Below are positions 7,535 through 25,320 of a DNA stretch of 25,322 bases, in pieces. A program made the position numbers and the translations under genes. The stretch's first letter is position 1. Every line of letters starts with the position of its first letter. Location: the IMG/VR virus record IMGVR_UViG_3300010885_015359, positions 1-25,322 of that record; one strand, written 5' to 3'. Source of the DNA: a virus. Under the pieces are notes generated by a model that made no database searches, had not been told where the DNA came from, and saw only the letters and a list, made by a program, of their open reading frames with translations.

Positions 7535-8998
7535 ATGGCTGAAGTAACAAATGCAGTAGCGCCACCCCAAGAAAATGTTCTTGGTGATATTACTGTTGTT
7601 GGAAAAGCAATTGCTCCCAACGCTGATGGTGAAGATCGTCTAAAAGCAACAGATATTGTTTACAAGAAAATCACTAATGATACTGAAGGGTATGCAAACA
7701 CTGATTTTCAGACATTGCCTTTTTTTGGAGCTTTGCTGCGTGGCGATACGCGAGGAATGATCCGAGCCTATAACGGTGGTGAAACTCGCCGCATTACTGG
7801 TCGGCATCCCACTTATGGCGCTTATGAAGTTGAATACAACGAACGCAATGCGCCTACTGGCCGAATCTTTAAAAACGGCAAAGAAGTTTCTGCAACTGAG
7901 GCAAACAAAATTAATGACGCTGGTGGCTTGTACACCATGCAAGACAATACTGCTTTGCAAAGTGGTGGATTTACTGCGGCTCAAGAAATCCGCAAAAACA
8001 TGGAGCAGACACTTGCCAAGCCAATTGTCGACCAATATTTAATTGCTCAAGGTGTTTCACAGCGCGGCACAACCTTGCGTGATGCCATTGACCAGCGTGG
8101 AATGCTTAATTCCAACAAGGCAATGCTTCCGGTGCTTACTGCCATCTCTAGCCTAAAGCCAGAGCAGCGCAAAGAATTGTTTGGTTTTGTTTCGGCTCAA
8201 GCAGGCAAAACAACTGGTCAGACAACTGAGCAAACAGCAAGCAAATCTGGCAGCGCAACTGTTGGCAAGAATGTTCAAGGCACTGTTGGCGGCAATATTA
8301 CTGGTGGGGTTGGTAGTGCAATTGGTGGAGTTGCTCCTCCTATGGGTGGTGCGGAAGGTGTGGCTCCAGGCGCATCAATTGGCGTTAAAGCAGGCCGCAC
8401 TGCTGGCTCAACAAATCAAGCTACCGCCACTGGTACAGAAGGCCAGCAAATCGGCACAACTGGTGGTACTTCATCAAACATTCAGACCAATGTTTCAAGT
8501 GAAGTGCAAAAGATTATTCAGATGGCCGCTGGCTCTCCTGAAGTATTTACTGGCTTGCAAAAATATCTGCAACTCAGCAATGTAATTAATAGCCAAGTTG
8601 AAGAAATGGACAAAATTTCTGGCGACAATCAAGCGCCGGGTGTTCGTAAAGTTGCTCCTCTTGAGCCACTGATGAATAGTCCCCGCGATGTGGCTTTGTA
8701 CGATAATGATGTTCGCCGCAATAATGCTTTAACTGTTGCTTACGCTGCGTTTTTGGCTAAGAAAATCCATGCAACGCATAACAAGCCAGATGAAAAAGAC
8801 ATTGGTCAATGGCGTGAAGAATTTACCAAGAGCCGCTTTTTTAAAGCAGCCAATCGTACATTTGACCATGAAAGTCAAATGATTAATGGCAAAAAGCCTG
8901 AACTTGAAGATGACGCAATTTATGTTGATAAAAACAATAAAATGCGCCGTTGGAATGCCCGTGACAAAGATTGGGAGCCTGTAAATGTCCAAAAGTAA
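7535..8998 (+). CDS. Putative internal virion protein, unknown family
   Basis: The 487-residue product has an N-terminal folded-looking region (about 1-170, including RGDTRGMIRAYNGGETRRIT and YGAYEVEYNERNAPTGRIF), a low-complexity Gly/Thr/Ala/Gln middle (about 220-330), and a more charged helical C-terminus (about 340-487). No catalytic motif, signal peptide or clear transmembrane helix is seen, and no lytic transglycosylase signature is evident. Its 3' end overlaps the next gene by 14 bases in another frame. Its place between fibre and lysis genes suggests a DNA-ejection or internal head protein. Confidence 0.6.
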   Translation: MAEVTNAVAPPQENVLGDITVVGKAIAPNADGEDRLKATDIVYKKITNDTEGYANTDFQTLPFFGALLRGDTRGMIRAYNGGETRRITGRHPTYGAYEVEYNERNAPTGRIFKNGKEVSATEANKINDAGGLYTMQDNTALQSGGFTAAQEIRKNMEQTLAKPIVDQYLIAQGVSQRGTTLRDAIDQRGMLNSNKAMLPVLTAISSLKPEQRKELFGFVSAQAGKTTGQTTEQTASKSGSATVGKNVQGTVGGNITGGVGSAIGGVAPPMGGAEGVAPGASIGVKAGRTAGSTNQATATGTEGQQIGTTGGTSSNIQTNVSSEVQKIIQMAAGSPEVFTGLQKYLQLSNVINSQVEEMDKISGDNQAPGVRKVAPLEPLMNSPRDVALYDNDVRRNNALTVAYAAFLAKKIHATHNKPDEKDIGQWREEFTKSRFFKAANRTFDHESQMINGKKPELEDDAIYVDKNNKMRRWNARDKDWEPVNVQK

Positions 8999-10613
8999 TG
9001 TTTCAGATATTGACTACAGTGCTTTCAATGAAATACAGCCTGCTGCTACGGCTGAAGCCTCTGCTGTGGCAAAGCCAAAATCTTCAAAGATTGCTGAACG
9101 TAGTATTGCCAAACCAAAATCAGAACCAAAGCCAATTGTTGGAGCAGATGTAAGCAACCCTACGGCAGTTGCTGAAAGAGCAACAGAAACTTCAAACGCT
9201 TTCCCTGGCCTTGAAATACCTGATTCGCTTGTCAACTATGCGTTGCCTGCTTTAGGTGCTCTTGGCGCTGGTTTGGCTGGATATGGTCTTTATAAAAGCA
9301 AAGGCAATCCAGATTGGGGCAAGTCAGTTGCAGGCGCTCCTCCTGAAGGAATGGGCCCAAAGCCTGATTTGCGAAATATTGGTGCTACACCTGAAGTTGC
9401 GCCTCCTGCGGCTCCTACACCTGCCGCACAAAATCTTCCTAAACCCACATTCCCTCAAGGCGCAATTCAGCAACCCATAATTTCTGGCTATGGTCAGCAA
9501 ACAATGAATGCTCCTACTGGCGTTCCCAATGTTGCTGCCCCTGCCGCACCTGTTGCCCCTCCTGCTAATGTTGCCCCTCAACCAGTTGACCCAATGCAGG
9601 CGGCTCGGATTCGTAAGGCTGAAGCAGAAGCCGCTATTGCCGAGCATAGACTTCAGCAACTGCAATCAGGTGCAAAGGTTGCCCCCGCAAACAAACCTGC
9701 TGGCTCTGTGTCTGAAGCCGACTTGCAAATGATTCAAAAGAGTGGCGAGGCATCTACAGACAAGATGTTGCGTTCTCAGGCGGCGGCAACCATTGCTGTT
9801 GACAACATTGCTCCTGTTGCCGACCCAATTCAAACAACTGCTACACCTGCTGAAAAGCAAGCCGCTGTGGATGTTGTGACTGAAGAAAACAAAAAAGCAG
9901 AAGCCAAGAAACAAGCCCCGGCAATCGAAGGCAAAGCAGGCGCTGCTGTTGAGCCATCTGAAGTTTTGCGTACTGGCACTGGTCGTGAGGTGATTGCAGG
10001 CCAAGGACCAGTACCCAAAAGATTTTCCAAAGAATACAAATCTCCTACTGATGTGCCAAAAGGATATTTTTTCCTTCCTGGCGGTCAGTACATTGACACT
10101 CTTCGCAATGACTTGGGTCAAAGCACATATACCCAACAGTTCACAAATCGAGAGTTTCCACAAACTTATCCTGAAGCTGTTGAATCTGGCAAAAACATCA
10201 ATCGTGAATTGAATCGTCCTACTCGTGAGCAATTGAAGGCGCAAGGCATTGCTCCTCCTGAAGTAACGCCGGGAATTGGCAAACAAGTTGGCACTAATAA
10301 AATTGTTAAAGTTGGCGGCGTGGCTGGCGCTTTGTTCTCTATTGCTGATATTGCAAAAGCAGAAAATGCTCAACAGCGCCGTGAAGCTGTTGGCAATGCG
10401 TTGCTTGGCTTCCTGCCGCCGGGTACAGATATTTCTTCTGCTGGAGCGCCCACATTGACTCCGCAACAAGTTGAGGCAAACAAAAAAGCATATGAGGAAA
10501 CCTTGAAACTTGGTAGCCCTTACGCTTTTTCAGAAGAAGGAAAACGATTCCGCCAAGGCAAAAAAGTCGGCGGTGGTCGTGGAATTGCACCCCCATCAGC
10601 ATATTTGAGGTAA
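8985..10613 (+). CDS. Ala/Pro-rich putative ejection protein with one hydrophobic helix
   Basis: This 542-residue protein is Ala/Pro/Lys-rich. Residues about 82-104 (LVNYALPALGALGAGLAGYG and following) form a Gly/Ala-rich hydrophobic helix that could cross a membrane. Residues about 204-228 (ARIRKAEAEAAIAEHRLQQL) are a charged coiled-coil segment, and Pro/Ala linkers flank them. The C-terminal half is more mixed and has another Ala-rich hydrophobic stretch near 445 (VGGVAGALFSIADIAKAE). The start lies within the preceding gene behind a GGGAG ribosome site. A membrane-active, disordered, late-block protein fits a component that enters the host envelope with DNA, but this is inference. Confidence 0.6.
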   Translation: MSKSNVSDIDYSAFNEIQPAATAEASAVAKPKSSKIAERSIAKPKSEPKPIVGADVSNPTAVAERATETSNAFPGLEIPDSLVNYALPALGALGAGLAGYGLYKSKGNPDWGKSVAGAPPEGMGPKPDLRNIGATPEVAPPAAPTPAAQNLPKPTFPQGAIQQPIISGYGQQTMNAPTGVPNVAAPAAPVAPPANVAPQPVDPMQAARIRKAEAEAAIAEHRLQQLQSGAKVAPANKPAGSVSEADLQMIQKSGEASTDKMLRSQAAATIAVDNIAPVADPIQTTATPAEKQAAVDVVTEENKKAEAKKQAPAIEGKAGAAVEPSEVLRTGTGREVIAGQGPVPKRFSKEYKSPTDVPKGYFFLPGGQYIDTLRNDLGQSTYTQQFTNREFPQTYPEAVESGKNINRELNRPTREQLKAQGIAPPEVTPGIGKQVGTNKIVKVGGVAGALFSIADIAKAENAQQRREAVGNALLGFLPPGTDISSAGAPTLTPQQVEANKKAYEETLKLGSPYAFSEEGKRFRQGKKVGGGRGIAPPSAYLR

Positions 10614-15720: not shown

Positions 15721-16563
15721 TTAGTCGCCGCAAAAACATGGGATGGTTTCATCATTGCCAAAAAAGTCTGTTTGGGTCTCGGCAAACTTCATCATGTCGG
15801 CATAGTTAGCCCGATCTTGTCTAAAAACTCGACCTGATGGTTTTTCACAAAATGTTTTGGCTTCTTGTTCCATCTTGGCCCACCAAATAGCCCGTTCAGG
15901 CTTTTCCTGAATCAAGCTCATGGTTTGGCTTGTGCCCTTCAAAAAGCAAAGGTCGCAATTGCCGTGATAAGTAACACCATTGATGTTTGGCAATTCAAGG
16001 TCAAAAGATTGATTACGCCAAAATTCACCCACTATTTCTTTAGATACGCCAGCAGTCACCAAAGGAGTTCTGTCTCTTGGTATCTTTGCGGCTCGGCGTG
16101 GCTCATCTGCCCTGATCCCAACCCAACTCATGTATTCGCCTTGACTGCGGTTTTCACACATTCCTTTTGAAAACAAATAATTAGCAATTGGTCTAATCTT
16201 CATGTCAGTCGTACAAAACCTAGTAACCGGGTTGGGTAGGTAATTCTTTTTACGAATCACAGCCTCAAAAGGCTCACCATTCCTGCTGGCTGTTTCGTAA
16301 GTAACCTGTTTCCAACGATCTTTTGTTTCTTCTGCGTCTGTGTACTCAAGCCAAACAATTGGAACATTCCAATTTGTCTCGCAGTCATGCACAAACTTTA
16401 AAGTTGCCTCATCTTCTTTGCCTGTGTTGGCAAAACAGACAACGCAATCTTCTGGCAGGCTCATCTGGTGAGCCTCCAACACTCTGTACAACATGTATGC
16501 AGATGTTCTGCCACCAGAAAAACTGATGCAGGTCGGTTCAATAATTTCAAAAGGGTTGCTCAT
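15721..16563 (-). CDS. PAPS reductase-like / adenine nucleotide alpha-hydrolase family protein
   Basis: This 280-residue protein has the PP-loop SGGRTS at residues 16-21 (family usual SGGKDS or SGGKTS), then FANTGKEDEATLKFVHDCE (43-61) and VTRFCTTDMKIRP (113-125), all typical of the PAPS reductase superfamily. Cysteines at 117, 203 and 206 (GNCDLCFLKG) and 276 and 278 (PCFCGD) could hold a metal or Fe-S centre, as in DndC-type relatives. These enzymes activate or reduce sulfur or adenylate substrates. It lies 18 bases after the Mom-like gene, so participation in nucleobase or DNA modification is possible. Substrate is unknown. The start follows a weak GGA. Confidence 0.75.
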   Translation of the reverse strand: MSNPFEIIEPTCISFSGGRTSAYMLYRVLEAHQMSLPEDCVVCFANTGKEDEATLKFVHDCETNWNVPIVWLEYTDAEETKDRWKQVTYETASRNGEPFEAVIRKKNYLPNPVTRFCTTDMKIRPIANYLFSKGMCENRSQGEYMSWVGIRADEPRRAAKIPRDRTPLVTAGVSKEIVGEFWRNQSFDLELPNINGVTYHGNCDLCFLKGTSQTMSLIQEKPERAIWWAKMEQEAKTFCEKPSGRVFRQDRANYADMMKFAETQTDFFGNDETIPCFCGD

Positions 16564-23023: not shown

Positions 23024-23137
23024 TTAGCAGATTAAGGGGGCATCAGGCCAGCGAGCTTTGCGCTGCTGCTGATACTCTCGTTCGCGCTCAGGTGGCCAGG
23101 GAATCGGGCCACTAGGGGCGGGGAATGGCCATGTCAT
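23024..23137 (-). CDS. Micro-protein of 37 aa after GP88-like gene
   Basis: A 37-residue frame starts in an ATGA overlap with the GP88-like stop and ends just before the terminator. It reads MTWPFPAPSGPIPWPPERER and continues with a basic, Gln-rich stretch (YQQQRKARW). The Pro/Trp-rich start is unusual. Coupling and fit to the terminator argue for translation; function unknown. Confidence 0.5.
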   Translation of the reverse strand: MTWPFPAPSGPIPWPPEREREYQQQRKARWPDAPLIC

Positions 23138-23790
23138 GCCGATGCCGTTTTCATCATAATCACGCGCTGCATTTTTTGGCCGTGTGCTGGATAGGCGATT
23201 AAATCAATAGATTTATCCCAGCAGGCGCGACAGCCAGAACATGTGCCACCATGCTCATAGGCGCGGCACAATGAAACACCAGGCGATTGGACAAAAGAAT
23301 CAGCACATGGGCCGATAACCGAACCATGTAAACCGGGCGTGTATTCCCCATTAATGCTATCGGCACTGAACCGAACCATGACATTTTCAAGGGCTTGCAT
23401 TTCACGGAATACAGCACGGAATTTGGGGAATTTGTGCATGCGAGTAGGTAGCCAGTGCTTGCACCAGGGTGTTCGCTGCATTACTTCTAAAATTTTCTCT
23501 GCAAGTCCCACGGCGTACATGTCGCCAGAGTCGAACCACCGAAAATAACGGCTTGAATCAAGAGCTTGAACCATGTCATCAACCCATTCGATGCGCTGCC
23601 AGTCTTCTTTATTGGATAGGCGCGGAGCTTTGACGTTCGGGTAATTGTAGTTACCAGTAGTTGCATAGCATCCCTTGCAAGCATCAACTAGAACGCCGGG
23701 TGATTCAATTGAACCGGGACATGTGTCTAGAGCCTGCAGGGACCATGACAAGATTCCGTCTAATTTTGATGTTTTGCTGATTTTAATCAT
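23134..23790 (-). CDS. GP88-like Cys-rich phage protein
   Basis: This 218-residue protein matches the phage gene-product-88 pattern: KISKTSKLDGILSWSLQALD then TCPGS, and CKGCYATTGNYNYPNVKAPR (about residues 38-57), with FRWFDSGDMY (83-92) and RFSADS (140-145) further on. It has nine cysteines, including CKGC (38-41) and the cluster CSGCRAC (184-190), suggesting a bound Fe-S cluster or zinc. The alternation of strands and helices could be a TIM-barrel-like enzyme. Biochemical role of the family is not established to my knowledge. The ribosome site is weak (GAAAG). Confidence 0.75.
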   Translation of the reverse strand: MIKISKTSKLDGILSWSLQALDTCPGSIESPGVLVDACKGCYATTGNYNYPNVKAPRLSNKEDWQRIEWVDDMVQALDSSRYFRWFDSGDMYAVGLAEKILEVMQRTPWCKHWLPTRMHKFPKFRAVFREMQALENVMVRFSADSINGEYTPGLHGSVIGPCADSFVQSPGVSLCRAYEHGGTCSGCRACWDKSIDLIAYPAHGQKMQRVIMMKTASA

Positions 23791-23804: not shown

Positions 23805-24038
23805 TTATTCAATTTCTACGACTTGCCATTTGAAGTCGCCCACAATTCCAAAATCGGCTTTGTCTAGGTTAGATGCAATATCAACAAAAACAAAATCGCC
23901 CAAATCTGCGGTTGCTTTATCAGTGTTGTAAAAATCGTAATAAGCATCGCAAAGCTTCCAAATGCCATTTTTAAAATACCAATCATTGCCGCCAAAACTT
24001 TGACTTGTGCTGATTTGAGTAATTTCAATGTGTTTCAT
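23805..24038 (-). CDS. Hypothetical acidic protein
   Basis: A 77-residue acidic protein rich in aromatic residues, starting MKHIEITQISTSQSFGGNDW, then YFKNGIWKLCDAYYDFYNTD, ending DFKWQVVEIE. It appears beta-rich. It lies 14 bases before the GP88-like gene in the same direction, so the two are probably co-expressed. Family not recognised. Confidence 0.6.
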   Translation of the reverse strand: MKHIEITQISTSQSFGGNDWYFKNGIWKLCDAYYDFYNTDKATADLGDFVFVDIASNLDKADFGIVGDFKWQVVEIE

Positions 24039-24553: not shown

Positions 24554-24581
24554 GGGGGGGGTTAAGGGGGAGGGGGTAGGG
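24554..24581 (+). other. G-quadruplex motif
   Basis: Four G runs of 8, 5, 5 and 3 bases are separated by TTAA, A and TA, fitting a short-loop quadruplex on the plus strand. Further G-rich sequence follows to 24609. It sits in noncoding DNA between the palindromes and the structured RNA region. Confidence 0.65.
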
Positions 24582-24953
24582 CTGGAACGGGGTAGAAGAT
24601 GGGGGGCCCGCTGAGTCGTTCCCGAAATTTATTTAAAAACTTTTTCCTAAAGCCCGACAAAGCCGCAGGGTTATTTGTACATTGAATTAAATGCTGGGTT
24701 GTTGTCAGATTGGACAACACTGTTGTTTTATTAGATTGGGTAGCTGTGGACGAACTATGGCATCCACTGTGTGTGGTAGTTCTTCAAAGAAGAGTAGCAC
24801 CTTGTTTATCTAACCTGACTTACCTTGGTAAGCTCCACCTGTATGTTCCCGTTCATTGCTTACTAGAGAGACTGATGGATTCGGTACGTTTATCTGGGTT
24901 GGTAAGCTACCTGCCGTCCCAAGGGCTGGATGATGGCCCCGTGTTCATTCTAT

Positions 24954-24965
24954 AGGGTTTTCCCT
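24954..24965. promoter_or_regulatory. Operator-like palindrome AGGGTTTTCCCT
   Basis: The fifth copy of the AGGG/CCCT palindrome, with TA on both flanks as in the other copies. It lies 92 bases before the -35 of the promoter that leads to the tRNA-like element. Confidence 0.55.
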
Positions 24966-25045
24966 AATTGCAATGCAATAAGTCTACTGTTCTAGTTGGA
25001 CTTTCTGTGGGCAAATTGTGTATAAGTTGTCCTGTATAAAAATTT

Positions 25046-25075
25046 TTTACTCAAAACTTTTTCTTGGCATAGAAT
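25046..25075 (+). promoter_or_regulatory. Sigma70-like promoter before the tRNA-like element
   Basis: A -35-like TTTACT (25046-25051) and a good -10 TAGAAT (25070-25075) are 18 bases apart. Transcription would begin about seven bases downstream, at 25082, exactly the 5' end of the tRNA-like fold. The -10 matches consensus at five of six bases; the -35 is weaker. Confidence 0.5.
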
Positions 25076-25081
25076 GCGCCT

Positions 25082-25150
25082 GCTGGGATGGTGTAAATCT
25101 AACATGTGGCTATTGCCATAGATGTGAGTCAAACCTCACTCTCAGTTCCA
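25082..25150 (+). ncRNA. tRNA-like element with CCA but no anticodon loop
   Basis: All four cloverleaf stems can be drawn. The acceptor is GCTGGGA/TCTCAGT (25082-25088 with 25140-25146, two G-U pairs). The D stem is GTGT/ACAT (25091-25094 with 25102-25105, one G-U pair), and the D arm resembles that of some tRNA-Gln. The anticodon stem is GTGGC/GCCAT (25106-25110 with 25115-25119, one G-U pair). Four variable bases follow, and the T stem is GTGAG/CTCAC (25124-25128 with 25135-25139). T147 and CCA (25148-25150) end it. The anticodon loop has four bases (TATT) instead of seven and the T loop six (TCAAAC). It is therefore either a decayed tRNA or an RNA mimic that cannot decode. Confidence 0.45.
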
Positions 25151-25320
25151 ACACGCATGGGGATTGAGTGCGGGTATAGCAAGAATGTGATGACGATTGC
25201 ATTTCTGCTCCGACAATCTCCAGCCGTGTTGGAATGTTAAGCCAGCATTCAAGGATGTTGACGCAGGGAATTTTCTGGCTTTCTGCCCTGCCGTGTTGAA
25301 GACCAAATTGAGTTCCAACA
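25144..25320. repeat. Recurring hairpin arms near the right edge
   Basis: AGTTCCAACA occurs at 25144-25153 and 25311-25320; CCGTGTTG occurs at 25224-25231 and 25291-25298. They are mutually complementary over TGTTG/CAACA, so several alternative stems are possible. A separate stem GCAGGG/CCCTGC (25263-25268 with 25286-25291) sits between. The pattern is cut by the window edge. Confidence 0.6.
25146..25234 (+). ncRNA. Long nested imperfect hairpin
   Basis: Arms TTCCAACACG (25146-25155) and CGTGTTGGAA (25225-25234) are perfect complements. Inside them pair GGGGATTG (25159-25166) with CAATCTCC (25214-25221), CGG (25171-25173) with CCG (25210-25212), and AGCAAGAATG (25178-25187) with CATTTCTGCT (25200-25209, one mismatch, one G-U). 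About 30 pairs stack over 89 bases. The outer 5' arm includes the CCA of the tRNA-like element, so the two folds compete. Confidence 0.55.

Follow-up and report, generated by a model that had tools for sequence, protein, structure and literature searches.

The tRNA-shaped cloverleaf at 25082-25146 is best explained as the head of a 5' leader RNA in freshwater phages, one that is built of modules, is highly structured and may protect the mRNA, with the cloverleaf as a presumed tRNA-shaped cap; we give this reading about an even chance of being right. The anatomy of the leader (its modules, their covariation, the spacing to promoter and start codon, and a tRNA in the slot of the cloverleaf) is well supported by sequence comparison. 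The window, i.e. the whole stretch of DNA analysed, is a 25.3-kb linear virus record (25,322 nucleotides), and it stops 2 nt past the last module of the leader, inside the RNA (Table 1). A preliminary description, made from the letters of the window, had ended the element at 25150 and had considered that it might be a domain of a larger RNA. The former boundary does not hold, because the RNA runs on into a conserved hairpin (A-B) and a domain of type W; the latter suggestion is supported, and the cloverleaf heads this modular RNA.

Table 1 Features of the leader and its surroundings in the window
Feature	Position	Strand	Remarks
Second conserved non-coding block, upstream of promoter	24721..24970	+	71-79% to L026, L030, L039, L064, L066, L305
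Conserved promoter segment	25031..25076	+	-35-like 25046-25051, -10 25070-25075, predicted +1 = 25082
5' domain, tRNA-shaped cloverleaf	25082..25146	+	Acceptor-like helix begins at predicted +1; same slot holds tRNA-Asn in MW202484.1
Acceptor-like helix	25082-25088/25140-25146	+	7 bp
Anticodon-like stem	25105-25110/25115-25120	+	6 bp, 4-nt loop
T-like stem	25124-25128/25135-25139	+	5 bp, 6-nt loop TCAAAC; directly abuts acceptor; TTCCA after cloverleaf
A arm, outer strand TTCCAACACG	25146..25155	+	Contains 'CCA'; pairs with 25225-25234
A arm, inner strand TGGGGATTG	25158..25166	+	Pairs with 25214-25222; compensatory changes across 225 modules
Variable tip of A-B hairpin	25167..25213	+	241 distinct tips among 279 modules
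B arm CAATCTCCAGCCGTGTTGGAA	25214..25234	+	3' part doubles as 5' strand of domain II
Domain II type W	25227..25320	+	Closing helix TGTTGGAA/TTCCAACA, hairpin, pseudoknot; covariation; covariance model R1 106 bits
W pseudoknot	AAGCCAG 25239-25245 / CTGGCTT 25275-25281	+	

Taken alone, the fold of 25082-25146 is weak evidence. Its minimum free energy of -20.5 kcal/mol (z = -2.47) was equalled by 3 of 200 shuffles, and in a 241-nt fold by a pseudoknot-free method the acceptor helix was lost to competing pairs. A geometric cloverleaf scan, with a descriptor written after the element had been seen, returned this element as its single match on both strands of the window; because 24 shuffled strands gave three matches, the fold is only mildly unlikely by chance. 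Chance is made less likely by the placement of the cloverleaf, which has its first base at the predicted +1 and its last against a conserved hairpin. Sequence searches with 25082-25140 found no relatives, exact-pattern scans (GCTGGGATGGTGTAAATCTAA, ATGTGAGTCAAACCTCA) gave zero matches, and a 77-aa gene at 23805-24038 used as a route to relatives led to none; consequently, the cloverleaf itself is without covariation support.

The element had been described as a four-stem cloverleaf with an encoded CCA, an anticodon loop of four bases and a T loop of six. The drawing and both loop lengths stand, while the D-like arm is weak (3-4 bp) and the CCA letters (25148-25150) lie in a predicted 10-bp helix with 25225-25234; in the complete genome MW202484.1 they form a true tRNA end. 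Where a tRNA has 7-nt anticodon and T loops, each on a 5-bp stem, the window has a 4-nt loop on a 6-bp stem and a 6-nt loop on a 5-bp stem. ARAGORN reported no tRNA at the cloverleaf, and the tRNA covariance model RF00005 had no match in the window at the gathering cut-off or at E ≤ 10, which is the outcome of the low-cut-off search that the preliminary description had proposed. Because both programs came back empty and the 'CCA' is predicted to form a strand of the next hairpin, we conclude that the cloverleaf is not a tRNA.

From 25141 onward the sequence is conserved in other phage contigs, whereas 25082-25140 is not. The arms of the conserved hairpin are the motifs A (ACACGCATGGRGATTG) and B (CAGTCTCCAGCCGTGTTGG), and its tip is hypervariable; both motifs and the covarying inner helix are present at 25146-25234 of the window. 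Across 225 modules, collected by motif searches that are biased toward members near the consensus, 99.3% of cells in the inner helix are paired, with 15 double compensations against a mean of 1.6 and a maximum of 6 in shuffles. A-B modules stand in one to four tandem units, and the B pattern occurs in more than 120 IMG/VR contigs among the matches listed; of 27 genome matches to the B motif, a single one, the Burkholderiales MAG contig L213, also has an A motif. Four tandem A-B/domain II units lie ahead of a glutaredoxin-like gene at about 8790-9420 of locus L177.

After B comes a domain II that is closed by TGTTGGNN/NNCCAACA, and the 161 examples fall into 66 sequence clusters, i.e. at least 66 kinds. 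Internal domain IIs, which are delimited solely by the next A, show all six tested pairs in 28 of 32 cases, and identical cargo was found as domain II, as tip or as 5' domain. In the window this place is taken by W, whose closing helix uses the B strand. Among 13 W sequences, both sides changed in 19 of 25 pairs, and the 60 double-change cells compare with 19.5 in shuffled alignments, none of 500 shuffles reaching that number. The covariation score was 0.539 against 0.194 when shuffled and at most 0.10 when slid, the slid control being one that favours W, as its structure was drawn by eye from the same alignment. The compensations in W are far beyond both controls, and its unpaired bases are highly conserved. 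Folded by a pseudoknot-free method, W alone does no better than shuffled sequence (z 0.26), as would follow from an important pseudoknot. Many contigs carry W by itself, closed by other helices; the count of 75 such cases is an upper figure, because some members of arrays (the window, L156, L329) were wrongly labelled so. A lone W, as at 5760-5880 of L154 and at about 70 other loci, opens the phage transcript predicted there, and stand-alone W is a candidate for a new Rfam family of its own. In another kind of domain II (L288, L307, L272, L096, L298), two hairpins have complementary loops (GCTGAT/ATCAGC, also ACTGAT/ATCAGT), which resembles the tRNA elbow made by kissing loops.

The position of these modules relative to genes argues for a leader. 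In 72 of 108 cases (67%), a start codon accompanied by a Shine-Dalgarno-like motif follows the terminal domain II at no more than 60 nt, compared with 123 of 708 (17%) for random positions, and 66 of the 72 lie at 15-30 nt or close to it. Stand-alone W stands shortly before a Shine-Dalgarno-like motif and start codon in 32 of 69 cases. Some arrays are not ahead of a gene, and one (L091) ends at a terminator-like hairpin. Comparison places the RNA of freshwater phage relatives as the predicted 5' leader of virus mRNAs. The downstream proteins form 29 clusters, including TerS-like proteins, TerL, GNAT and exonuclease, so that there is no single regulated gene; for the same reason we regard a gene-specific riboswitch as unlikely. 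The window's own start codon lies beyond its end, and the gene there is probably a GNAT gene, judging from MW202484.1, L014, L015 and L021.

At the other end of the leader, the preliminary description had assigned the element its own promoter, with transcription starting exactly at its first base. The position is supported, since L014, L015, L021, L044 and MW202484.1 all conserve the segment 25031-25076, which predicts +1 at 25082; the match to consensus is not, TTTACT-18-TAGAAT (25046-25075) being no better than shuffles. More generally, 50 of 146 distinct modules have a strong -10 box whose end lies 8-16 nt ahead of the first A, compared with 28 of 730 in the control, and in 11 of 21 scored cases of stand-alone W such a strong box lies 14-15 nt ahead of GTTAAGCC. 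In L279, L288, L307, L173, L120 and L258 the slot of the cloverleaf is taken by other 5' domains, each closed by a helix near +1. A helix test over all 5' leaders gave a modest excess (28 versus 9 of 156 at a score ≥20), modest because many leaders have no 5' domain.

Upstream of the promoter, the block at 24721-24970 often lies just upstream of the array in relatives and is possibly a companion element of the leader; its fold is no better than shuffled (z 0.13). Another non-coding block, at 24564-24647, is conserved at 73-84% in L005, L007, L014, L015, L017, L021, L032 and L044. Elsewhere on the minus strand, the window encodes a PAPS reductase-like protein (15721-16563; PHROG 424, E 4e-49), an auxiliary metabolic gene, and a Gene product 88 family protein (23134-23790; Pfam PF17338) that is present in hundreds of related contigs.

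Among relatives with a complete genome, the nearest is MW202484.1 from Manatee Spring, with a structural gene 73% identical to that of the window. It was recovered only by a motif scan of fetched records, and blastn against INPHARED found neither the array nor W. Its order is the same promoter, a tRNA-Asn(GTT) at 41503-41578, A, B, a domain II and a GNAT gene, and its large terminase gene starts at 2718. The CCA of the tRNA-Asn is joined directly to A (ACACGCATG, ACACGCATGAGGATTG), and compensatory changes recur between the A arm TGAGGATTG and the B arm CAGTCCTCA of this genome. The same promoter is found in L014, together with a tRNA-Asn(GTT), and in L015 and L021, where it lies ahead of a GNAT gene. 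Because MW202484.1 carries a tRNA-Asn between the same promoter and A-B, the cloverleaf of the window occupies a slot that is able to hold a real tRNA. tRNA homology is also found further inside the leaders of relatives. With scores of 39-49 bits, five kinds of domain II exceed the Rfam cut-off for tRNA; they keep intact D and T arms, and in place of the normal anticodon arm they have insertions (L106, L247, L109), a lengthened arm (L276) or an arm with a 6-nt loop (L201). Because these five kinds lack a normal anticodon arm, a tRNA shape without decoding is a recurring feature of the modular RNA class, and it is more convincing in relatives than in the window. The preliminary description had also suggested a mimic that engages tRNA-processing or aminoacylating enzymes; such a role would be conjectural, although tRNA-homologous domains of abnormal anticodon arm do exist in the related RNAs.

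We suggest the following working model. Transcription would begin at the first base of the cloverleaf, and the acceptor-like helix would base-pair the 5' end of the RNA; the A-B hairpin and the pseudoknotted W would come next, and soon after them a coding sequence, by comparison the GNAT gene ahead of the terminase genes. Such a leader would most likely hold the 5' end of the mRNA double-stranded and thereby slow 5'-end-dependent decay of the RppH/RNase E type, without covering the ribosome-binding site. The cap could be any compact fold closed by a helix at +1, and this could be why the cloverleaf, a true tRNA-Asn and other domains exchange in the slot. That a transcript is made and protected, with the cloverleaf as its cap, is what the model predicts. 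A point against a protective leader is that the diversity of domains exceeds the needs of simple end protection.

The element might instead be a decaying tRNA-Asn at the head of a leader operon, a working tRNA in the slot having lost its decoding arm in the window phage. Consistent with this, a tRNA-Asn(GTT) lies behind the same promoter in two relatives, joined to A by its CCA in MW202484.1, and the geometry of acceptor and T stem is preserved in the cloverleaf. The preliminary description had argued from the retained stems and CCA that the element is no decayed tRNA; this argument is weakened, because CCA is frequent at this place in relatives, where it can pair with UGG of the next hairpin, and a true tRNA-Asn fills the slot in MW202484.1, yet the element is without sequence similarity to that tRNA. 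Aligned to the tRNA-Asn of MW202484.1 or of L014, the cloverleaf scored no better than shuffled letters, and we reject sequence homology between them; a tRNA has either changed past recognition here or given way to another domain. The blindness of the Rfam tRNA model at E ≤ 10 also speaks against decay, as do the relatives: their tRNA-homologous domains keep D and T arms, so that loss of decoding recurs with the fold retained. We consider decay unlikely, although a serious candidate. A chance cloverleaf, in front of the A-B hairpin in a 5' leader that is otherwise ordinary and unstructured, would fit the matches in shuffled strands, the modest z and the failure of searches to find relatives of 25082-25140; the element, however, reaches from +1 to the border of A, the very place at which other members have closed domains or a tRNA, and we judge chance to be quite improbable.

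Two further readings concern function. The tRNA-like and pseudoknotted domains could bind a protein or ligand and so put the downstream operon under translational or transcriptional control, as in the thrS leader and the T4 gene 32 pseudoknot. The distance of mostly 15-30 nt from leader end to start codon and the conserved unpaired bases of W agree with such control, and a switch is possible because A and domain II can both pair with the B strand; the 29 downstream clusters and the free exchange of domains are, however, ill-suited to one fixed signal, and we think such control rather unlikely. A tRNA-shaped decoy array, directed against tRNA-directed nucleases or other RNA-binding proteins of host defence, would make sense of the five tRNA-homologous domain kinds without a normal anticodon arm and of the many fast-changing kinds, and phage tRNAs are known to counter tRNA-directed defences (PMC11555353). 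Because most domain kinds are not tRNA-like and the known cases provide intact tRNAs, we regard a decoy function as very improbable.

Beyond the protective leader itself, we tentatively propose, at slightly less than an even chance, that the RNA represents an undescribed and widespread phage RNA class, in which folded domains exchange freely on constant joints (the A-B hairpin and a closing helix of 8 bp), some of these domains being tRNA-derived and without decoding arms; together they would serve phage mRNAs as combinatorial 5' armour or as an effector array. Rfam 15 would then lack a structured RNA that is common among environmental phages. Domain shuffling at this scale is usual for proteins, and here the tRNA shape would be reused repeatedly without decoding. 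With the leader one could test directly whether phages armour the 5' ends of their mRNAs, and new pseudoknots and tRNA mimics could be drawn from it.

In comparison with known systems, Rfam 15 gave no family above cut-off in the window and the scanned array loci except tRNA, in array loci; Y RNA, T-box, tmRNA, pRNA and its other models were without a match, as far as Rfam models them. The searched literature, from which most subscription papers fall outside, holds no description of the modular RNA. Integron attC sites and cassettes were considered and rejected: the GTTRRRY/RYYYAAC boxes are absent (by eye, the B arm reads GTTGGAA or GTTGGTG and the A arm TTCCAAC), and W covaries at the RNA level. 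Like GOLLD and ROOL, the modular RNA is phage-encoded, pseudoknotted and non-coding, and the GOLLD linker can house tRNAs (PMC12286853); the modular RNA, however, has no GOLLD or ROOL match in Rfam, its small units repeat and exchange, and most end before a start codon. With tRNA (RF00005) it shares the cloverleaf geometry, with the T stem against the acceptor, and several domains of relatives score 39-49 bits, whereas the window element is unmatched, has 4-nt and 6-nt loops, and its CCA is predicted to lie within a helix. The phage tRNAs known to act against tRNA-cleaving defences are tRNA-shaped and phage-encoded like the cloverleaf, but they are complete tRNAs (PMC11555353, PMC13096335). 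According to works cited in PMC3997798, 5'-terminal pairing stabilises E. coli mRNAs or slows their decay; as in the ompA-type 5'-terminal stem-loops, the 5' end would be paired at +1 with the ribosome-binding site free, whereas the modular leader is far larger, contains pseudoknot and tRNA-like domains, and its stabilising effect is putative. Finally, the T4 gene 32 leader contains a pseudoknot in a phage mRNA leader (PMC3014915), as does W, a likeness by description only; there a single autoregulated gene follows, whereas many unrelated genes lie behind the modular leader.
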